A stretch of DNA of 38,020 nt, from IMG/VR virus record IMGVR_UViG_3300030109_002694, positions 1 through 38,020 of that record; one strand, 5' to 3'. The notes beneath the pieces are model-generated. The model saw nothing but the letters and a program-made list of their open reading frames with translations. It did not search any database and was not told the origin of the DNA. Source of the DNA: a virus. The translations under genes were made by a program, and so were the position numbers. Below are positions 14,083 through 38,020 of the stretch, one piece after another (the first letter of the stretch is position 1; every line of letters begins with the position of its first letter).

Positions 14083-14220
14083 ATGAAAAGTAGATTCCCA
14101 TTTAAAACAAAAATAAAAGCAATGCTAAAAAGAAAGAAAAAGAAAAATGGTAGAAATGGCGATGATTATGGTCAGATACCTACAGGTAATGGAGCAGAAA
14201 ACCCAGTCGGAGGCAATTAA
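14083..14220 (+). CDS. 45-aa basic/Gly-rich small protein
   Basis: Begins MKSRFPFKTKIKAMLKRKKK and ends in a Gly/Asn-rich tail (GNGAENPVGGN). Ribosome binding site AAGGAG 6 nt upstream. The stop overlaps the portal ATG by one base (TAATG). The IKAMLK segment resembles the one in the preceding 53-aa protein (IKAMLKG), perhaps an old duplication. Function unknown. Confidence 0.65.
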   Translation: MKSRFPFKTKIKAMLKRKKKKNGRNGDDYGQIPTGNGAENPVGGN

Positions 14221-16013
14221 TGGCAACAAAAGACTACGATAAAGCAGTGCCAAACGATATGGAGCTAACCCAGGCAAAGGGTCACGTCCCTAGCGATAAG
14301 GATAAAAAGCTTCTAAAGTATATGGAGCGTATGTTTAATGCTGCTAAAAGTGCACGAGCTCATAAAGTCCCACGATGGAGACGTAATGAGGAGCTTTATA
14401 ATGGTGATTTCTTTAAACCCTTTAAGTTACCTAAGTATAAAACTAGGATTGTAGCTAACAGTGTTCACTCTATTGTTGAAACTGTGTACTCTATTTTAAC
14501 AGATAGACCTAATAAAGTAGACATAATGCCTAAAACAGAGGAACAGGTAGAGGCAGCTAGACTAGCACAAGAGGCTGTAGAGTCTGAAATGCGTACAAAT
14601 AAGGCATTAAGAGCTATAAGTGGTATGAAAAGAGATGGCTTAGTGTATGGTAATGGATTTTTAAAGCTATCCTATAACGAAAATGGTATAGAATACTCTA
14701 CTCCAGACGTATATACAGTATTTGTAGACCCTCTAGCGACCAGTATAGAAGAGGCAAAGTGTATTACATTTGCAACTCCAACATACATAAAAGACATTAG
14801 AGATAACTACGAAAACGGAGATAAGGTAGTATCAGAGGGTAAATTAGACGAATATAAGTCATTTGTACGAATGAAATCAGACGATGGGGTAGGTCAAACT
14901 ACTACAGCATCAGGTGGTGCATCAGGAACATCCTCTGAGACAGGGGTAAGCACCTCAGATGTAAGGTCAGATTTCCAAGAGGTAGGTCCAACAGACGACA
15001 TGGACGATACAGAGGTGTTTGGAGGTCAGGTTTTATTAAAAGAATGCTGGCACTACATGAATGACAAGCTATATTTAACCACATACGCAGGAAATGTACT
15101 GCTTCAGCACGTTGAATCACCTACAGACTTTATACCAGTAGTACAATTTAAGAATTATGCAGACGAACACCAATTTTGGGGCAAAGGGGAACCAGAGATT
15201 GTTGAACCTCTTGCAGTAGGGACAGCTATACTGCTTTCCCAAAGCCTCGATAACATTATTTACCATGGAAATCCAGCATGGATTATGAGTAAATCACTAT
15301 CAAAAACGCCTGGAAACCGACCAAGCGACAAACCAGGACAGGTATTTTGGACAAATGGACCTCATGAGAGCATACAAAGGCTCCCAGCAGGCAATATGTC
15401 CTCATCAAACCTGCCTTTAGCACAGTATATGATGCAGCTTACAGACTCAATTAGTGGTATCCACGATATAACACAAGGTCGTAACCCTAGTGGAGTAACA
15501 GCAGCTAAAGCAATATCAGCACTGCAAGAAGCATCACAGCAAATTATTAGAGCAAAGGAAAGAGAGATAGGATTTGACTCCATAATAGACATATATAAGC
15601 ATACTTTAAGCATATTGGCTAATAACTACGAATCAGCGATAATTATTCGTAGAAACACCCAAATGGGCTACGAATTTAAGCAGATACAGCCATATGAGCT
15701 TACTGATGACATGGACTTTAAGTATGTACCAGGCTCAAGTATGCCAGAATCTCGTGCAAGTCGTATTGACCAGGCACTAGAGTATGTTCAAATGGGACTA
15801 TTAACACCAGAGCAATTCTGGAGATGGCATGAAAAGGATATTTCTAAAGATATTCTAGAAGAAATAATTGAACAAAAGAAAATGATGCAACAAAGACAAC
15901 AGCAGCAAATGGATACATTGAATAATTCTACAGACGAGAATGAAATAATGGAGACACTGCTACAGCAACGAGCTCAAATGGGTGCAGTCCCAGAAGAGGG
16001 AGAAGGAGAGTAA
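14220..16013 (+). CDS. Portal protein
   Basis: 597 aa. A podoviral/P22-type portal: an N-terminal helical region with PRWRRNEELYNG, the clip/wing part with KRDGLVYGNGFLKLSY and TVFVDPLA, and a C-terminal part with GIHDITQGRNPSG and ALQEASQQ, then a Gln-rich tail (RQQQQMD). Twelve copies should form the vertex ring for DNA entry and tail attachment. GGAGG gives a strong ribosome binding site. A Ser/Thr/Gly-rich loop at about residues 228-246 is likely a disordered insertion. Confidence 0.9.
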   Translation: MATKDYDKAVPNDMELTQAKGHVPSDKDKKLLKYMERMFNAAKSARAHKVPRWRRNEELYNGDFFKPFKLPKYKTRIVANSVHSIVETVYSILTDRPNKVDIMPKTEEQVEAARLAQEAVESEMRTNKALRAISGMKRDGLVYGNGFLKLSYNENGIEYSTPDVYTVFVDPLATSIEEAKCITFATPTYIKDIRDNYENGDKVVSEGKLDEYKSFVRMKSDDGVGQTTTASGGASGTSSETGVSTSDVRSDFQEVGPTDDMDDTEVFGGQVLLKECWHYMNDKLYLTTYAGNVLLQHVESPTDFIPVVQFKNYADEHQFWGKGEPEIVEPLAVGTAILLSQSLDNIIYHGNPAWIMSKSLSKTPGNRPSDKPGQVFWTNGPHESIQRLPAGNMSSSNLPLAQYMMQLTDSISGIHDITQGRNPSGVTAAKAISALQEASQQIIRAKEREIGFDSIIDIYKHTLSILANNYESAIIIRRNTQMGYEFKQIQPYELTDDMDFKYVPGSSMPESRASRIDQALEYVQMGLLTPEQFWRWHEKDISKDILEEIIEQKKMMQQRQQQQMDTLNNSTDENEIMETLLQQRAQMGAVPEEGEGE

Positions 16014-23791: not shown

Positions 23792-24760
23792 ATGACATGG
23801 GATAAATTAGTAGATAGATGTTTACTCTTTACAGACGCACCAGGTGGTTTGTTAAAGGAGCTTTTAAAAGAAGCAGAATCAGAGCTATCAAATAAACTTG
23901 AACTGTATGATGCTATATATACAATAGAAGTTCCAAATACCATAAAAGGTTTAGGTGTTTATTCAGCAGACACAGGTTCTGATTCTAGTTATACTAAATT
24001 GCCAGCAGATTACCTAAAGGATATTTCTGTAATACATCGTGGCTCAAGATTAAAAAAAGTTCCTGAATTTGAAATGCATAGACAAACAGATGGAACTATG
24101 ACAGGAGGAAGCCCAACATCATACTCAATATCTGGGGACTTTATAGTATTTAACAGAGAGCCTTCTGCAGGAGAAAAATTTACATTACACTATAAAAGCT
24201 CGCTGACTGAATATACAACAGATAAGGTATTAAACGTATATCATTATGATGCAATAGGAGGCGATTCAAACGACAGAATATTTTTAGATACTCCTCTAGG
24301 AGATAAATTGAACACATATCAAATTTGGTGGGAAATAGCTAATTATACGTTATCAGCAGGGACTACTGTAGGAACAAGCGTTCCTGGCATTCCTGATATT
24401 TGGTATGGAAATAAGTCAAAAAATTTATTAAACTCTGTAAATTATGGTGAAATAGCTCATTTGTCAAGATATCAACTAAATAACGATTTTGGGTCAGAGG
24501 TAGGGACATCTTCAGCTGATGCTGACACTCAAAATTCTATAGGGTCATTAGTAAGAGTAGTGAACTATAGAAATGTTGCTCCTCTTATCCCAGATAGATT
24601 TCATACAAGCTTATGCGACTACGCAGTAGCGATAGCAAACGCTAAATCAGCACCAGATATATATAACACCTATTGGACGAAATGGACGATGAATATGGAC
24701 AATTTAATTAATGAAGCAATGGATAGAGACCTTATACATAGCATTAAGGAGGAAATCTAA
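23792..24760 (+). CDS. Head-tail adaptor (Gp6/P22 gp4-like)
   Basis: 322 aa. The pattern TWDKLVDRCLLFTDAPGG with helix LLKEAESELSN at the start, TKLPADYLKD and PSAGEKFTLHYKSS in the middle, and a C-terminal helical part (LCDYAVAIANAKSAPDIYN) matches phage adaptor proteins that bind the portal. It is the second adaptor-like gene in the cluster, so one may be the true adaptor and the other a head-closure or tail-tube A-type protein. Confidence 0.65.
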   Translation: MTWDKLVDRCLLFTDAPGGLLKELLKEAESELSNKLELYDAIYTIEVPNTIKGLGVYSADTGSDSSYTKLPADYLKDISVIHRGSRLKKVPEFEMHRQTDGTMTGGSPTSYSISGDFIVFNREPSAGEKFTLHYKSSLTEYTTDKVLNVYHYDAIGGDSNDRIFLDTPLGDKLNTYQIWWEIANYTLSAGTTVGTSVPGIPDIWYGNKSKNLLNSVNYGEIAHLSRYQLNNDFGSEVGTSSADADTQNSIGSLVRVVNYRNVAPLIPDRFHTSLCDYAVAIANAKSAPDIYNTYWTKWTMNMDNLINEAMDRDLIHSIKEEI

Positions 24761-35467: not shown

Positions 35468-36049
35468 ATGAGTAAGATAGATTTATCTAAACTAACGCAA
35501 CCAACACCAGAAGATAGGATTAAACACAGAACCCAAGCAGGGGTAAAGCTGTCGTACGTTGATGCACGATACTGCATGGATGTACTTGATGATGTTGTAG
35601 GTCCTGAAAACTGGAGTGATGATTATAAAGAAGTAAAGGGTTTGTTGATGTGTGGTGTATCCATCAATGTTAATGGAGTTAAAGTAACAAAGTGGGACAC
35701 TGGAACTGAAGCAAACTTTGAAGGAGAAAAGTCTATAGTTAGCGACTCATTTAAACGAGCGTGTGTTAAATGGGGTATAGCAAGAGATTTATACGATATT
35801 AAAAAGGCTGGGGGGAACGCTACTCCGAAACCTACTGGAGCCTCAACTCCGAATGGTCCCCAGCCAGTCTCTCCAACAAGTAAGCAATCAGAATACATAC
35901 TAGACTTTGGTAAACATAGTGGCAAGTTTATCTCAGACATTCCTTTAGATTATCTTAAATGGTTTCTAAATCAGAAGGATAATAAGAAGGATGAGAAGAA
36001 GTACAATGTATTTCTAAGTGAATACCACAAAAGAAAAACAAATGATTAA
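35468..36049 (+). CDS. Rad52/22-type annealing protein with DUF3820-like tail
   Basis: 193 aa. Residues 1-118 have the Rad52/22 double-strand-break repair pattern (SYVDARYCMDVLDDVVGPENWSDDYKEV; SIVSDSFKRACVKWGIARDLY). A Pro/Ser linker (119-142) leads to a small domain, DFGKHSGKFISDIPLDYLKWFL, of the DUF3820/ExoX C-terminal type. Rad52-type phage proteins anneal complementary single strands during recombination-dependent replication; the tail domain probably binds DNA or a nuclease. Ribosome binding site AGGAGTAGCG. A 60-bp gap upstream separates it from the late genes and may hold a promoter (TATAAC at 35440-35445 is a weak -10 candidate). Confidence 0.8.
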   Translation: MSKIDLSKLTQPTPEDRIKHRTQAGVKLSYVDARYCMDVLDDVVGPENWSDDYKEVKGLLMCGVSINVNGVKVTKWDTGTEANFEGEKSIVSDSFKRACVKWGIARDLYDIKKAGGNATPKPTGASTPNGPQPVSPTSKQSEYILDFGKHSGKFISDIPLDYLKWFLNQKDNKKDEKKYNVFLSEYHKRKTND

Positions 36050-36776
36050 GCACGTTGAGGGAACTCGATATGGTAGGTTCTATGACATTGGGGATGGTAT
36101 ATACGTCCCCAGTGTTACTACGGTTACTAGATATGGATGCCCTACACCTAACTACCTTCTAAAGTACATAGTGAACAACTCAAAGGGTGACTATGATAAG
36201 TACCTAGAGACCAACTCTGAAGCACTTAGAGTAGGAACTGCTGTACATGATAACTGTGAGAAGCTTTTGTTAGGTGAGGACTTACTTATTGAGAACGACC
36301 CAGAGGTACAAAAAGGTGTTATAAGTTTCTGTAAGTGGTATCAAGACTACCTACCAAAGGTAATTGCAATAGAAGAGGTATTATACTGCAAGAACCATAA
36401 GAGAGGAAAGCTTATACATCCATTTGCTGGTAGATGTGACTTAGTAGCAGAGATGAACGATGAGACGTGGATGATTGACTTAAAGACATCTAAGAGCTTA
36501 GAGGACTATACTTATGTTATCCAACTTAGTATGTATAAGATGTTATGGGATGCTAGACATCCAGAGAGACCAATAGATAGACTAGCTTTAGTACATTGTA
36601 AAAAGAACTTTATGGGTGCACAGCCTACAGCCAGAACAAAGCTTTTTAAAGAAGTTAAGTTTGATGAGAAGTCTGTAAAGTCAGCAGTAAGATTCTTTTA
36701 CAGGTACCAGGAAGCCTTTGATAGTAAAGGGAACCTAAAAACAAAAGCTAAATTACAGACTGAATTTAAACTATAG
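36042..36776 (+). CDS. PD-(D/E)XK exonuclease (Exo/RecB/Cas4-like)
   Basis: 244 aa from ATG 36042, overlapping the annealase stop by 8 nt; an in-frame GTG at 36018 is less likely. Motifs: GTAVHDNCEKLL (helix with the first metal-site residues), FAGRCDLVAEMN (acidic residue), TWMIDLKTSKS (D-x-K core), and VIQLSMYKMLW (QxxxY). This set defines RecB-like nucleases. Encoded with the Rad52-type annealase it forms a two-component exonuclease-annealase system like lambda Exo/Bet or RecE/RecT. Confidence 0.8.
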   Translation: MIKHVEGTRYGRFYDIGDGIYVPSVTTVTRYGCPTPNYLLKYIVNNSKGDYDKYLETNSEALRVGTAVHDNCEKLLLGEDLLIENDPEVQKGVISFCKWYQDYLPKVIAIEEVLYCKNHKRGKLIHPFAGRCDLVAEMNDETWMIDLKTSKSLEDYTYVIQLSMYKMLWDARHPERPIDRLALVHCKKNFMGAQPTARTKLFKEVKFDEKSVKSAVRFFYRYQEAFDSKGNLKTKAKLQTEFKL

Positions 36777-36784
36777 GAGTAGCG

Positions 36785-37465
36785 ATGAACGATTATATAG
36801 TAATACCAGGAAGTATTTTAAGGGATGATAACCTTACCTATATGCAGAAGCTTATACTGGCTAAAATCACTAATTTAGATAACGATAAGGGGTGTTTTGC
36901 AACCAACAAATACTTTGCAAGACTATTATCCACATCTATAAATAGTGTATCAAAGACAATAAACCAGTTAAAAAGTATGGGATTAATTGAAGTAGAAATA
37001 ACAAACAATACAGATAGAAGTATAACCCTAGCCAAAAAGTGTAGGGGGGATGTCGTAAAAGTGGAGGGGGGGTCGCCTAAAAGTGTAGGGTCTTCCGATA
37101 CTATTAATATAGATAGTAATATAGATAATAATAAAATATATAAAAGTTTTATTGATTGGTGGAAATTATATAACAAAAAAGTTGGCAAGGATAAGGCTCT
37201 TAAGTTCTGGACTAAGAAACTTGACCAGTCTCTAGTGGATGATATTATGAACCACACCAAGCGTTATGTAAAAGCTACCGATAAGCAGTTTAGAAAGAAT
37301 CCATATACTTACCTGTTTAATAATTCATGGGAAGATGAGATAATGAACGAGGTAGAGGAACAGCAAAGCAATCCATATGTAGATGCTCAGAAACTAAAAG
37401 CCTACAATCTAAGAATGGGAACCAACTACCAGACAGTAGAAGAATTGAGGATGGCTAATGATTAA
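36785..37465 (+). CDS. Replication initiator, lambda-O-like (winged HTH + helicase-recruiting domain)
   Basis: 226 aa. The N-terminal domain (about 1-90) is a winged helix: LTYMQKLILAKITNLDNDKG, then CFATNKYFARLLSTSINSVS and KTINQLKSMGLIEVE. The C-terminal domain (about 118-190) with FIDWWKLYNKKVGKDKALKF, YVKATDKQFRKNP and TYLFNNSWEDEI matches the C-terminal part of many phage replication proteins that recruit the host helicase or its loader. The linker is coded by DNA with three 22-bp iterons followed by an AT-rich stretch, as in lambda O. No own helicase or polymerase is present. Ribosome binding site AGGAGTAGCG. Confidence 0.8.
   Translation: MNDYIVIPGSILRDDNLTYMQKLILAKITNLDNDKGCFATNKYFARLLSTSINSVSKTINQLKSMGLIEVEITNNTDRSITLAKKCRGDVVKVEGGSPKSVGSSDTINIDSNIDNNKIYKSFIDWWKLYNKKVGKDKALKFWTKKLDQSLVDDIMNHTKRYVKATDKQFRKNPYTYLFNNSWEDEIMNEVEEQQSNPYVDAQKLKAYNLRMGTNYQTVEELRMAND
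37035..37150. other. Candidate replication origin inside the initiator gene
   Basis: Three copies of a core AAAAGTGTAGGG (second: AAAAGTGGAGGG) start at 37035, 37057 and 37079, a constant period of 22 bp. Because 22 is not a multiple of three, the three copies are read in three different frames, so the repeat is a DNA signal and not a protein repeat. Immediately downstream, 37098-37150 is extremely AT-rich (TATTAATATAGATAGTAATA type), a suitable unwinding element. The position in the linker of a lambda-O-like gene matches lambdoid origins. Confidence 0.7.
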
Positions 37466-37859
37466 ACTGGGTGATGCTATGCGACCACTTACAAGTAAAT
37501 TTGATATTGATTTAAGCTTAGGAGAGAAGTATGAAGACTCTCTTGCTCAGATATTAACCATATCCAAGATAGAAGTTAAAGCAGAAATAGATAAGTGGAG
37601 AGATACAGGTAACATAGCTATAGAGATTAGATGTAATGGAAAGCTATCTGGATTATCTGTAACTAAAGCAGACCACTGGTGTCATGTTTTATCGTACAAG
37701 AATGAAATTAAAATGATATTAATATTCCCTATAGAAGAACTTAAAAGAATAGTCAGGGAGCTAGTAGACAAAAAAGAAGCTAAGGTAGTTATGGGTGGTG
37801 ATAATAATAAATCACAGCTCGTACTGGTACCTCTAGATAAACTGAAAGGAGTAGCATGA
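37458..37859 (+). CDS. PD-(D/E)XK nuclease-like protein (right copy)
   Basis: 133 aa, same gene as 37-438 with four substitutions (I29L, V87I, N93E, Q107E). The E-V-K core and TGNIAIEI strand are unchanged. Ten further base changes are silent, showing purifying selection on the coding sequence. It overlaps the initiator gene end by 8 nt, giving the full context that is cut at the left window edge. Confidence 0.6.
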   Translation: MIKLGDAMRPLTSKFDIDLSLGEKYEDSLAQILTISKIEVKAEIDKWRDTGNIAIEIRCNGKLSGLSVTKADHWCHVLSYKNEIKMILIFPIEELKRIVRELVDKKEAKVVMGGDNNKSQLVLVPLDKLKGVA

Positions 37860-37954
37860 GATATAGAGATGAATTAGAGCTAATAATAATGATAGGAATA
37901 CTGGTAGTAGGAACTATTGCACTTGTAATGTTAGTGAGGTCAGCATGGATATAA
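37856..37954 (+). CDS. Small single-span membrane protein (right copy)
   Basis: 32 aa counterpart of 435-533. Five residues differ, all hydrophobic or small exchanges within the membrane segment (LIIMIGILVVGTIALVMLV), while the flanking residues MRYRDELE and RSAWI are identical. Same AAGGAGTAGC ribosome binding site and ATGA overlap. Confidence 0.65.
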   Translation: MRYRDELELIIMIGILVVGTIALVMLVRSAWI

Positions 37955-38020
37955 TGAAAAAAATTGAAGAGATATATCCAGAGTGTACAGATGCCTTAAT
38001 GAATAACTTTGATAGAGCAT
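37945..38020 (+). CDS. 5' end of DUF1599/Nmad1-like gene (partial)
   Basis: First 25 codons of the gene that is complete at 524-880; cut by the window end. Identical in sequence to that copy. Confidence 0.85.
   Translation, partial: MDIMKKIEEIYPECTDALMNNFDRA

Follow-up and report, generated by a model that had tools for sequence, protein, structure and literature searches.

A putative iteron origin within an HTH_36 initiator gene of a phage genome, and covariation between initiators and their repeats across the family

Embedded origins and the initiator gene

The origin of phage lambda is embedded in its initiator gene (PMC7466680), and genetics has placed that of 80alpha within the initiator gene ORF20 (PMC5499656). 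Related arrangements are found in RepA_N plasmids such as pSK41, where the Rep boxes are central in the rep gene, the N-terminal domain (NTD) binds them, and the origin codes for the linker, and in SPP1 (G38P/oriL), where direct repeats and an AT-rich unwinding element lie inside gene 38. For plasmid pPR9, a hybrid Rep has been described in which an HTH_36 domain and origin region replace RepA_N and its origin (PMC5703833). We analyzed a viral record of 38,020 bp (here called the window), in which a sequence-only reading had described a lambda-O-like initiator gene with an iteron-type origin in the linker between its two domains. The gene, the parts of its product, and its two upstream neighbors are as follows.

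35468-36049, plus strand: Rad52/Erf-type single-strand annealing protein (PF04098, phrog_1097)
36018-36776, plus strand: PD-(D/E)XK exonuclease (PF12705, phrog_298)
36785-37465, plus strand: replication initiator gene, 226 aa (P0001; PF13730 HTH_36, E=5.4e-9; phrog_270, E=6e-28)
36785-37030, plus strand: winged-helix DNA-binding domain, residues 1-82 (AlphaFold2 model; weak PDB fold matches)
36938-36976, plus strand: recognition helix, residues 52-64 (AlphaFold2 helix; covariation with iteron sequence)
36941-36943 and 36953-36955, plus strand: covarying residues N53 and K57 of the recognition helix (covariation)
37046-37123, plus strand: disordered linker, residues 88-113 (pLDDT <50)
37127-37459, plus strand: alpha-helical C-terminal domain, residues 115-225 (AlphaFold2), with a putative primosome-recruiting role

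The protein scores 36.2 bits against PF13730, for which the curated cut-off is 25, and its match to phrog_270 (replication initiation protein) spans residues 4-198. According to these profiles, the gene product is a member of the HTH_36 phage replication initiators (phrog_270). The AlphaFold2 model, which is of moderate confidence (mean pLDDT 70), places the elements H9-12, H19-31, H41-47, H52-64, E68-72, and E78-82 in the N-terminal domain, and the RepA_N plasmid initiator domains 4pql, 4pt7, and 5kbj are among its best PDB fold matches, weak as these are (E values of 3e-3 to 1e-2). For the C-terminal domain, Pfam, PDB sequence, and fold searches returned no characterized relative. The modeled winged helix, the disordered stretch, encoded by the iterons together with the first half of the AT tract, and the helical C-terminal domain together support the two-domain layout with repeats in the linker that had been proposed.

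As in lambda O/ori-lambda, iterons and an AT tract are located within the initiator gene between the DNA-binding and C-terminal parts, the iterons fall in several frames (lambda codon offsets 0,2,2,1; lambda spacing 20-24 bp), and the AT tract is a local melting minimum. The repeats had been considered unlike those of lambda, which holds for their sequence (the four lambda iterons are 18 bp long, e.g., ATCCCTCAAAACGAGGGA) but not for their plan, as both consist of an A-tract flanked by G/C runs. The lambda initiator, however, belongs to PF04492 and is accompanied by the loader P. No match to PF04492 was obtained for 21 homologues of the window protein, while lambda O itself does match; direct profile comparison with lambda O gave an hhalign probability of 0.2%, and the two proteins are linked solely via the bridging family phrog_678. 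With no PF04492 match, no direct homology, and no adjacent loader P, membership of the lambda O family was rejected, and the earlier lambda-O-like label gives way to HTH_36.

The order of winged helix, iterons, AT tract, and C-terminal domain is also that of 80alpha ORF20 and of HTH_36 phages. Direct HTH_36 homologues are found in vB_Sau_JK1, Lactobacillus PL-1, Pseudomonas Skulduggery, and Cellulophaga phi39:1; 80alpha gp20 matches HTH_36 below the curated cut-off only. All of these differ from the window in that they carry other iteron sequences and, adjoining the initiator, a DnaC-like loader or a DnaB helicase. RepA_N systems are plasmids whose NTD belongs to another Pfam family: PF06970 had no match in the 21 homologues, and the fold match of the window protein to RepA_N is weak. 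SPP1 has a second origin elsewhere, as well as its own helicase and loader, and its likeness to the window is one of description, drawn without sequence comparison. The features of the class, i.e., tandem repeats between the DNA-binding and C-terminal domains and an adjacent, easily melted AT-rich element, are present in the window. Judged from its sequence, the locus is thus very likely an initiator-embedded iteron origin of the functional class to which lambda, SPP1, 80alpha, and the RepA_N plasmids belong.

Family scans for relatives of lambda P, DnaC, and DnaB found none in the record. As the scans returned neither a phage helicase nor a loader, the helicase/primase would probably be that of the host, and helicase loading may be carried out by the host or by an unrecognized protein. 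The initiator gene sits in a recombination/replication block, behind the annealing protein and exonuclease genes. The record begins and ends with nearly the same 599 bp (1-599 and 37422-38020; 96.3% identity), ORF 37-438 is the same gene as ORF 37458-37859 (phrog_13596), and relatives continue across the end junction. The near-identical ends and the relatives spanning the junction indicate that the genome, of ~37.4 kb, is circularly permuted and essentially complete and that the overlap is imperfect. Elsewhere in the record, an ArdC-type anti-restriction protein with a zincin-like peptidase domain (PF08401, PF18818; 4848-5798, minus strand) is encoded by one of the few minus-strand genes, and matches to SU10-type portal and adaptor proteins (PF23899, PF24175) at 14220-16013 and 23792-24760 point to an SU10-like virion.

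The repeat array and the adjacent AT-rich tract

The putative origin comprises four elements.

37035-37056, plus strand: iteron 1, AAAAGTGTAGGGGGGATGTCGT (repeat search, shuffle test)
37057-37078, plus strand: iteron 2, AAAAGTGGAGGGGGGGTCGCCT (repeat search, shuffle test)
37079-37090, plus strand: iteron 3, core only, AAAAGTGTAGGG (repeat search, shuffle test)
37098-37150, no strand assigned: AT-rich element, putative DNA unwinding element (melting minimum of the record; same order in relatives)

The core AAAAGTGKAGGG is found at 37035, 37057, and 37079, in exact 22-bp steps, and is absent from the rest of the 38,020-bp record. The sequence-only reading was right about these positions and their spacing, but the middle copy, AAAAGTGGAGGG, differs by one base from the core that it gave for all three (G for T). 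The G runs, said to be 3 to 7 long, were counted as 6, 7, and 3. A 34-base two-core pattern with up to 3 mismatches was recovered in none of 100 dinucleotide shuffles. Relative to the ORF, the copies begin in frames 1, 2, and 0 and encode KKCRGDVV, KVEGGSP, and KSVGSSD; since the three peptides all differ, the copies do not form a protein repeat, in agreement with what had been read from their frames. The exact repeat was matched at 36 loci in our collection, and those beyond the close family were mostly unrelated genes or noncoding arrays, so that the repeat sequence itself is family specific. Separately, AGTGKAGGG repeats 22 bp apart were seen in other viral contigs outside any recognized initiator gene (L033:6375-6405, L038:1519-1549, L014, L017, L020, and L032).

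The stretch of about 50 bp of nearly pure A/T reported to follow the repeats was confirmed, with 86% A+T over 37095-37150. At window lengths of 30, 50, and 60 bp, stability is lowest here among the ~38,000 windows of the record, the 50-bp minimum being -43.9 versus a mean of -61.0 (sd 3.8), with -49.5 at the next best site. Applied to lambda, the same calculation recovered its AT tract as a local minimum, and applied to 80alpha, it placed the minimum inside the annotated putative origin. Among 135 relatives, the 40-mer with the lowest stability at the locus was located within 80 bp downstream of the array in 95 and upstream of it in 3. GC skew over the whole record gave no origin signal, being positive throughout except at the minus-strand genes at 3-6 kb. 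A perfect DnaA box, TTATCCACA, at 36926-36934, in the winged-helix coding part ~100 bp before iteron 1, was set aside as a chance match (1 observed versus 2.5 expected).

A binding site inside a gene could also serve mainly as an autoregulatory operator that blocks transcription of the gene itself, with the true origin located elsewhere, and the covariation described below indicates binding rather than replication. We nonetheless consider this unlikely, as the AT tract beside the array is the genome-wide melting minimum and is kept beside the arrays of relatives, as expected of an origin, and related replicons of the same layout do replicate.

Arrays and constraint in HTH_36 homologues

We then compared the window with 10 close relatives whose initiators share 77-99% protein identity. 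The 22-bp spacing is kept in all of them. Synonymous differences affect 2 of 34 codons in the iteron and AT part versus 58 of 153 in the two domains (Fisher p=1.7e-4). In addition, some array changes turn one copy into the variant of another copy, such as TGT to TTG in L041 and GTA to GGA in L048.

A wider set of 637 HTH_36 initiators was gathered from viral contigs, bacterial genomes, and annotated phages and reduced to 164 non-redundant initiators sharing at most 75% of the winged helix. Members are found not only in Staphylococcus, Lactobacillus, Pseudomonas, and Cellulophaga phages but also in Clostridia and Flavobacterium genomes and a large number of uncultured viruses. Downstream of the domain, 127 of the 164 carry a significant tandem array, and 115 of these arrays are not pure A/T; by the method used, ~30% of the 164 homologues have no significant array of this type. 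The period is 21-25 bp in 114 of the 115 non-A/T arrays, compared to 33% in a codon-shuffled null, the commonest values being 22 bp (42 arrays) and 24 bp (39 arrays). Array sequences differ between subfamilies and from the repeats of the window. Homologues lacking repeats at this place had been named beforehand as evidence against an origin; instead, 115 of the 164 carry arrays there, and the spacing of 21-25 bp is maintained while the protein residues vary.

These arrays bear on two other readings of the repeats. The linker is predicted to be disordered, and the 24-bp arrays of some relatives do yield peptide repeats, as if the repeats were a protein-level feature, namely a flexible Gly-rich or low-complexity linker. 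Yet the 22-bp period of the window produces three unlike peptides, and the period is not divisible by three in 57% of the 115 arrays, which excludes a peptide repeat as the general cause. Given also that synonymous sites are constrained and that the array DNA covaries with the recognition helix, we regard a protein-level explanation as extremely improbable. The 6-G and 7-G runs of the window could alternatively form a strand-specific structure, either a G-quadruplex or an RNA element, rather than mark protein-binding sites. Among the non-redundant arrays, however, 50 have only G in their runs of at least 3, 47 have only C, and 24 have both, so that no strand is preferred. No Rfam match was obtained, and the covarying part takes in the arms beside the G/C runs, which makes such a structure very unlikely.

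Many distant relatives have a 15-bp motif, AATAATACAAGTATT, in their AT-rich part, where it uses the same codons (peptide NNTSI). It is located downstream of the arrays in L107, L109, L116, L130, L167, L182, and others and is absent from the window. Its conservation at the DNA level suggests a separate function for the motif.

Covariation with the recognition helix and cassette exchange

The winged-helix columns were ranked by how well they predict array similarity once overall identity has been regressed out; the permutation ignores phylogeny, and the z-values therefore serve as a ranking. With 201 sequences, N53 (z=18.8) and K57 (z=16.0) came first, ahead of T18 (z=10.0) and the next column (4.5). 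These two residues are four positions apart on the recognition helix. They led again at 75% redundancy (z=16.0 and 12.0; next column, 4.9) and 65% redundancy (z=7.5 and 5.7; next, 3.1), and at 55% redundancy (19 sequences) they were still first with z-values shrunk to 3.8 and 2.9. When only pairs with <50% identity were considered, T18 was ahead, with N53 and K57 behind. For control DNA (AT tract, C-terminal codons, and the first 25 wHTH codons), N53 and K57 ranked 47 or worse. A base-by-base version weighted to ~22 effective sequences, and hence underpowered, was mixed, and N53 and K57 were not first. The residue pairs at positions 53 and 57 go with distinct array sequences: E/R with TATTGAC, H/Q with TATGTAC, V/R with TATTAAC, K/R with TAGTGAC, and S/E with CTTCGG. 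The pair N53/K57 is confined to the close family of the window, whose half-site is thus not independently decoded. T18 (36836-36838), at the start of helix 1, is the third position that tracks iteron similarity and is possibly a backbone contact. We found no description of a family-wide recognition covariation in the open-licence literature; embedded origins themselves are already known, and this covariation is the new, testable part.

The homologue arrays, the synonymous constraint, the melting minimum, and the helix covariation all support the proposal of the sequence-only reading that the initiator binds a phage origin in its own gene. In all likelihood, the repeats are the iterons of that origin and would be bound by the initiator encoded around them. 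The N-terminal winged helix would insert its recognition helix into each iteron, making contacts via residues 53 and 57. Several initiator molecules, about two helical turns apart, could form a nucleoprotein complex that would melt the adjacent AT tract (37098-37150), after which the C-terminal domain may recruit the helicase/primase machinery.

Comparison of two Staphylococcus phages, vB_Sau_JK1 and ASZ22RN, revealed an exchange of this region. Their DNA shares 96% identity in two parts, one beginning just past the AT tract and the other lying upstream and ending ~760 bp before the JK1 initiator gene, whereas their N-terminal domains are unrelated (HTH_36 and PF09681). At these loci (L107:1480-2211 and L117:964-1797), the swapped piece includes the winged helix, the iterons, and the AT tract, at whose end the joint lies. 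A comparable swap that yielded a working replicon, with the HTH_36 domain and origin, is reported for pPR9 (PMC5703833), and in PLE elements, the RepA_N domain covaries with the origin (PMC8263062).

HTH_36 initiators probably constitute a very large group of replicons, of phages and also of phage-plasmids, whose winged helix, iterons, and unwinding element move together as one self-recognizing cassette, with two helix residues largely setting the half-site. Should this hold, sequence alone could be used to predict the specificity and compatibility of origins. Most phage origins are unmapped, and in most members of this family, the origin would be readable from the initiator gene itself. With the protein and its site on the same few hundred bases and changing together, the family would provide a natural experiment on how specificity changes without breakage, one that also bears on phage compatibility and mosaic exchange. 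Through the cassette and the two-residue covariation, specificity would become directly testable for many phage origins that are unmapped.
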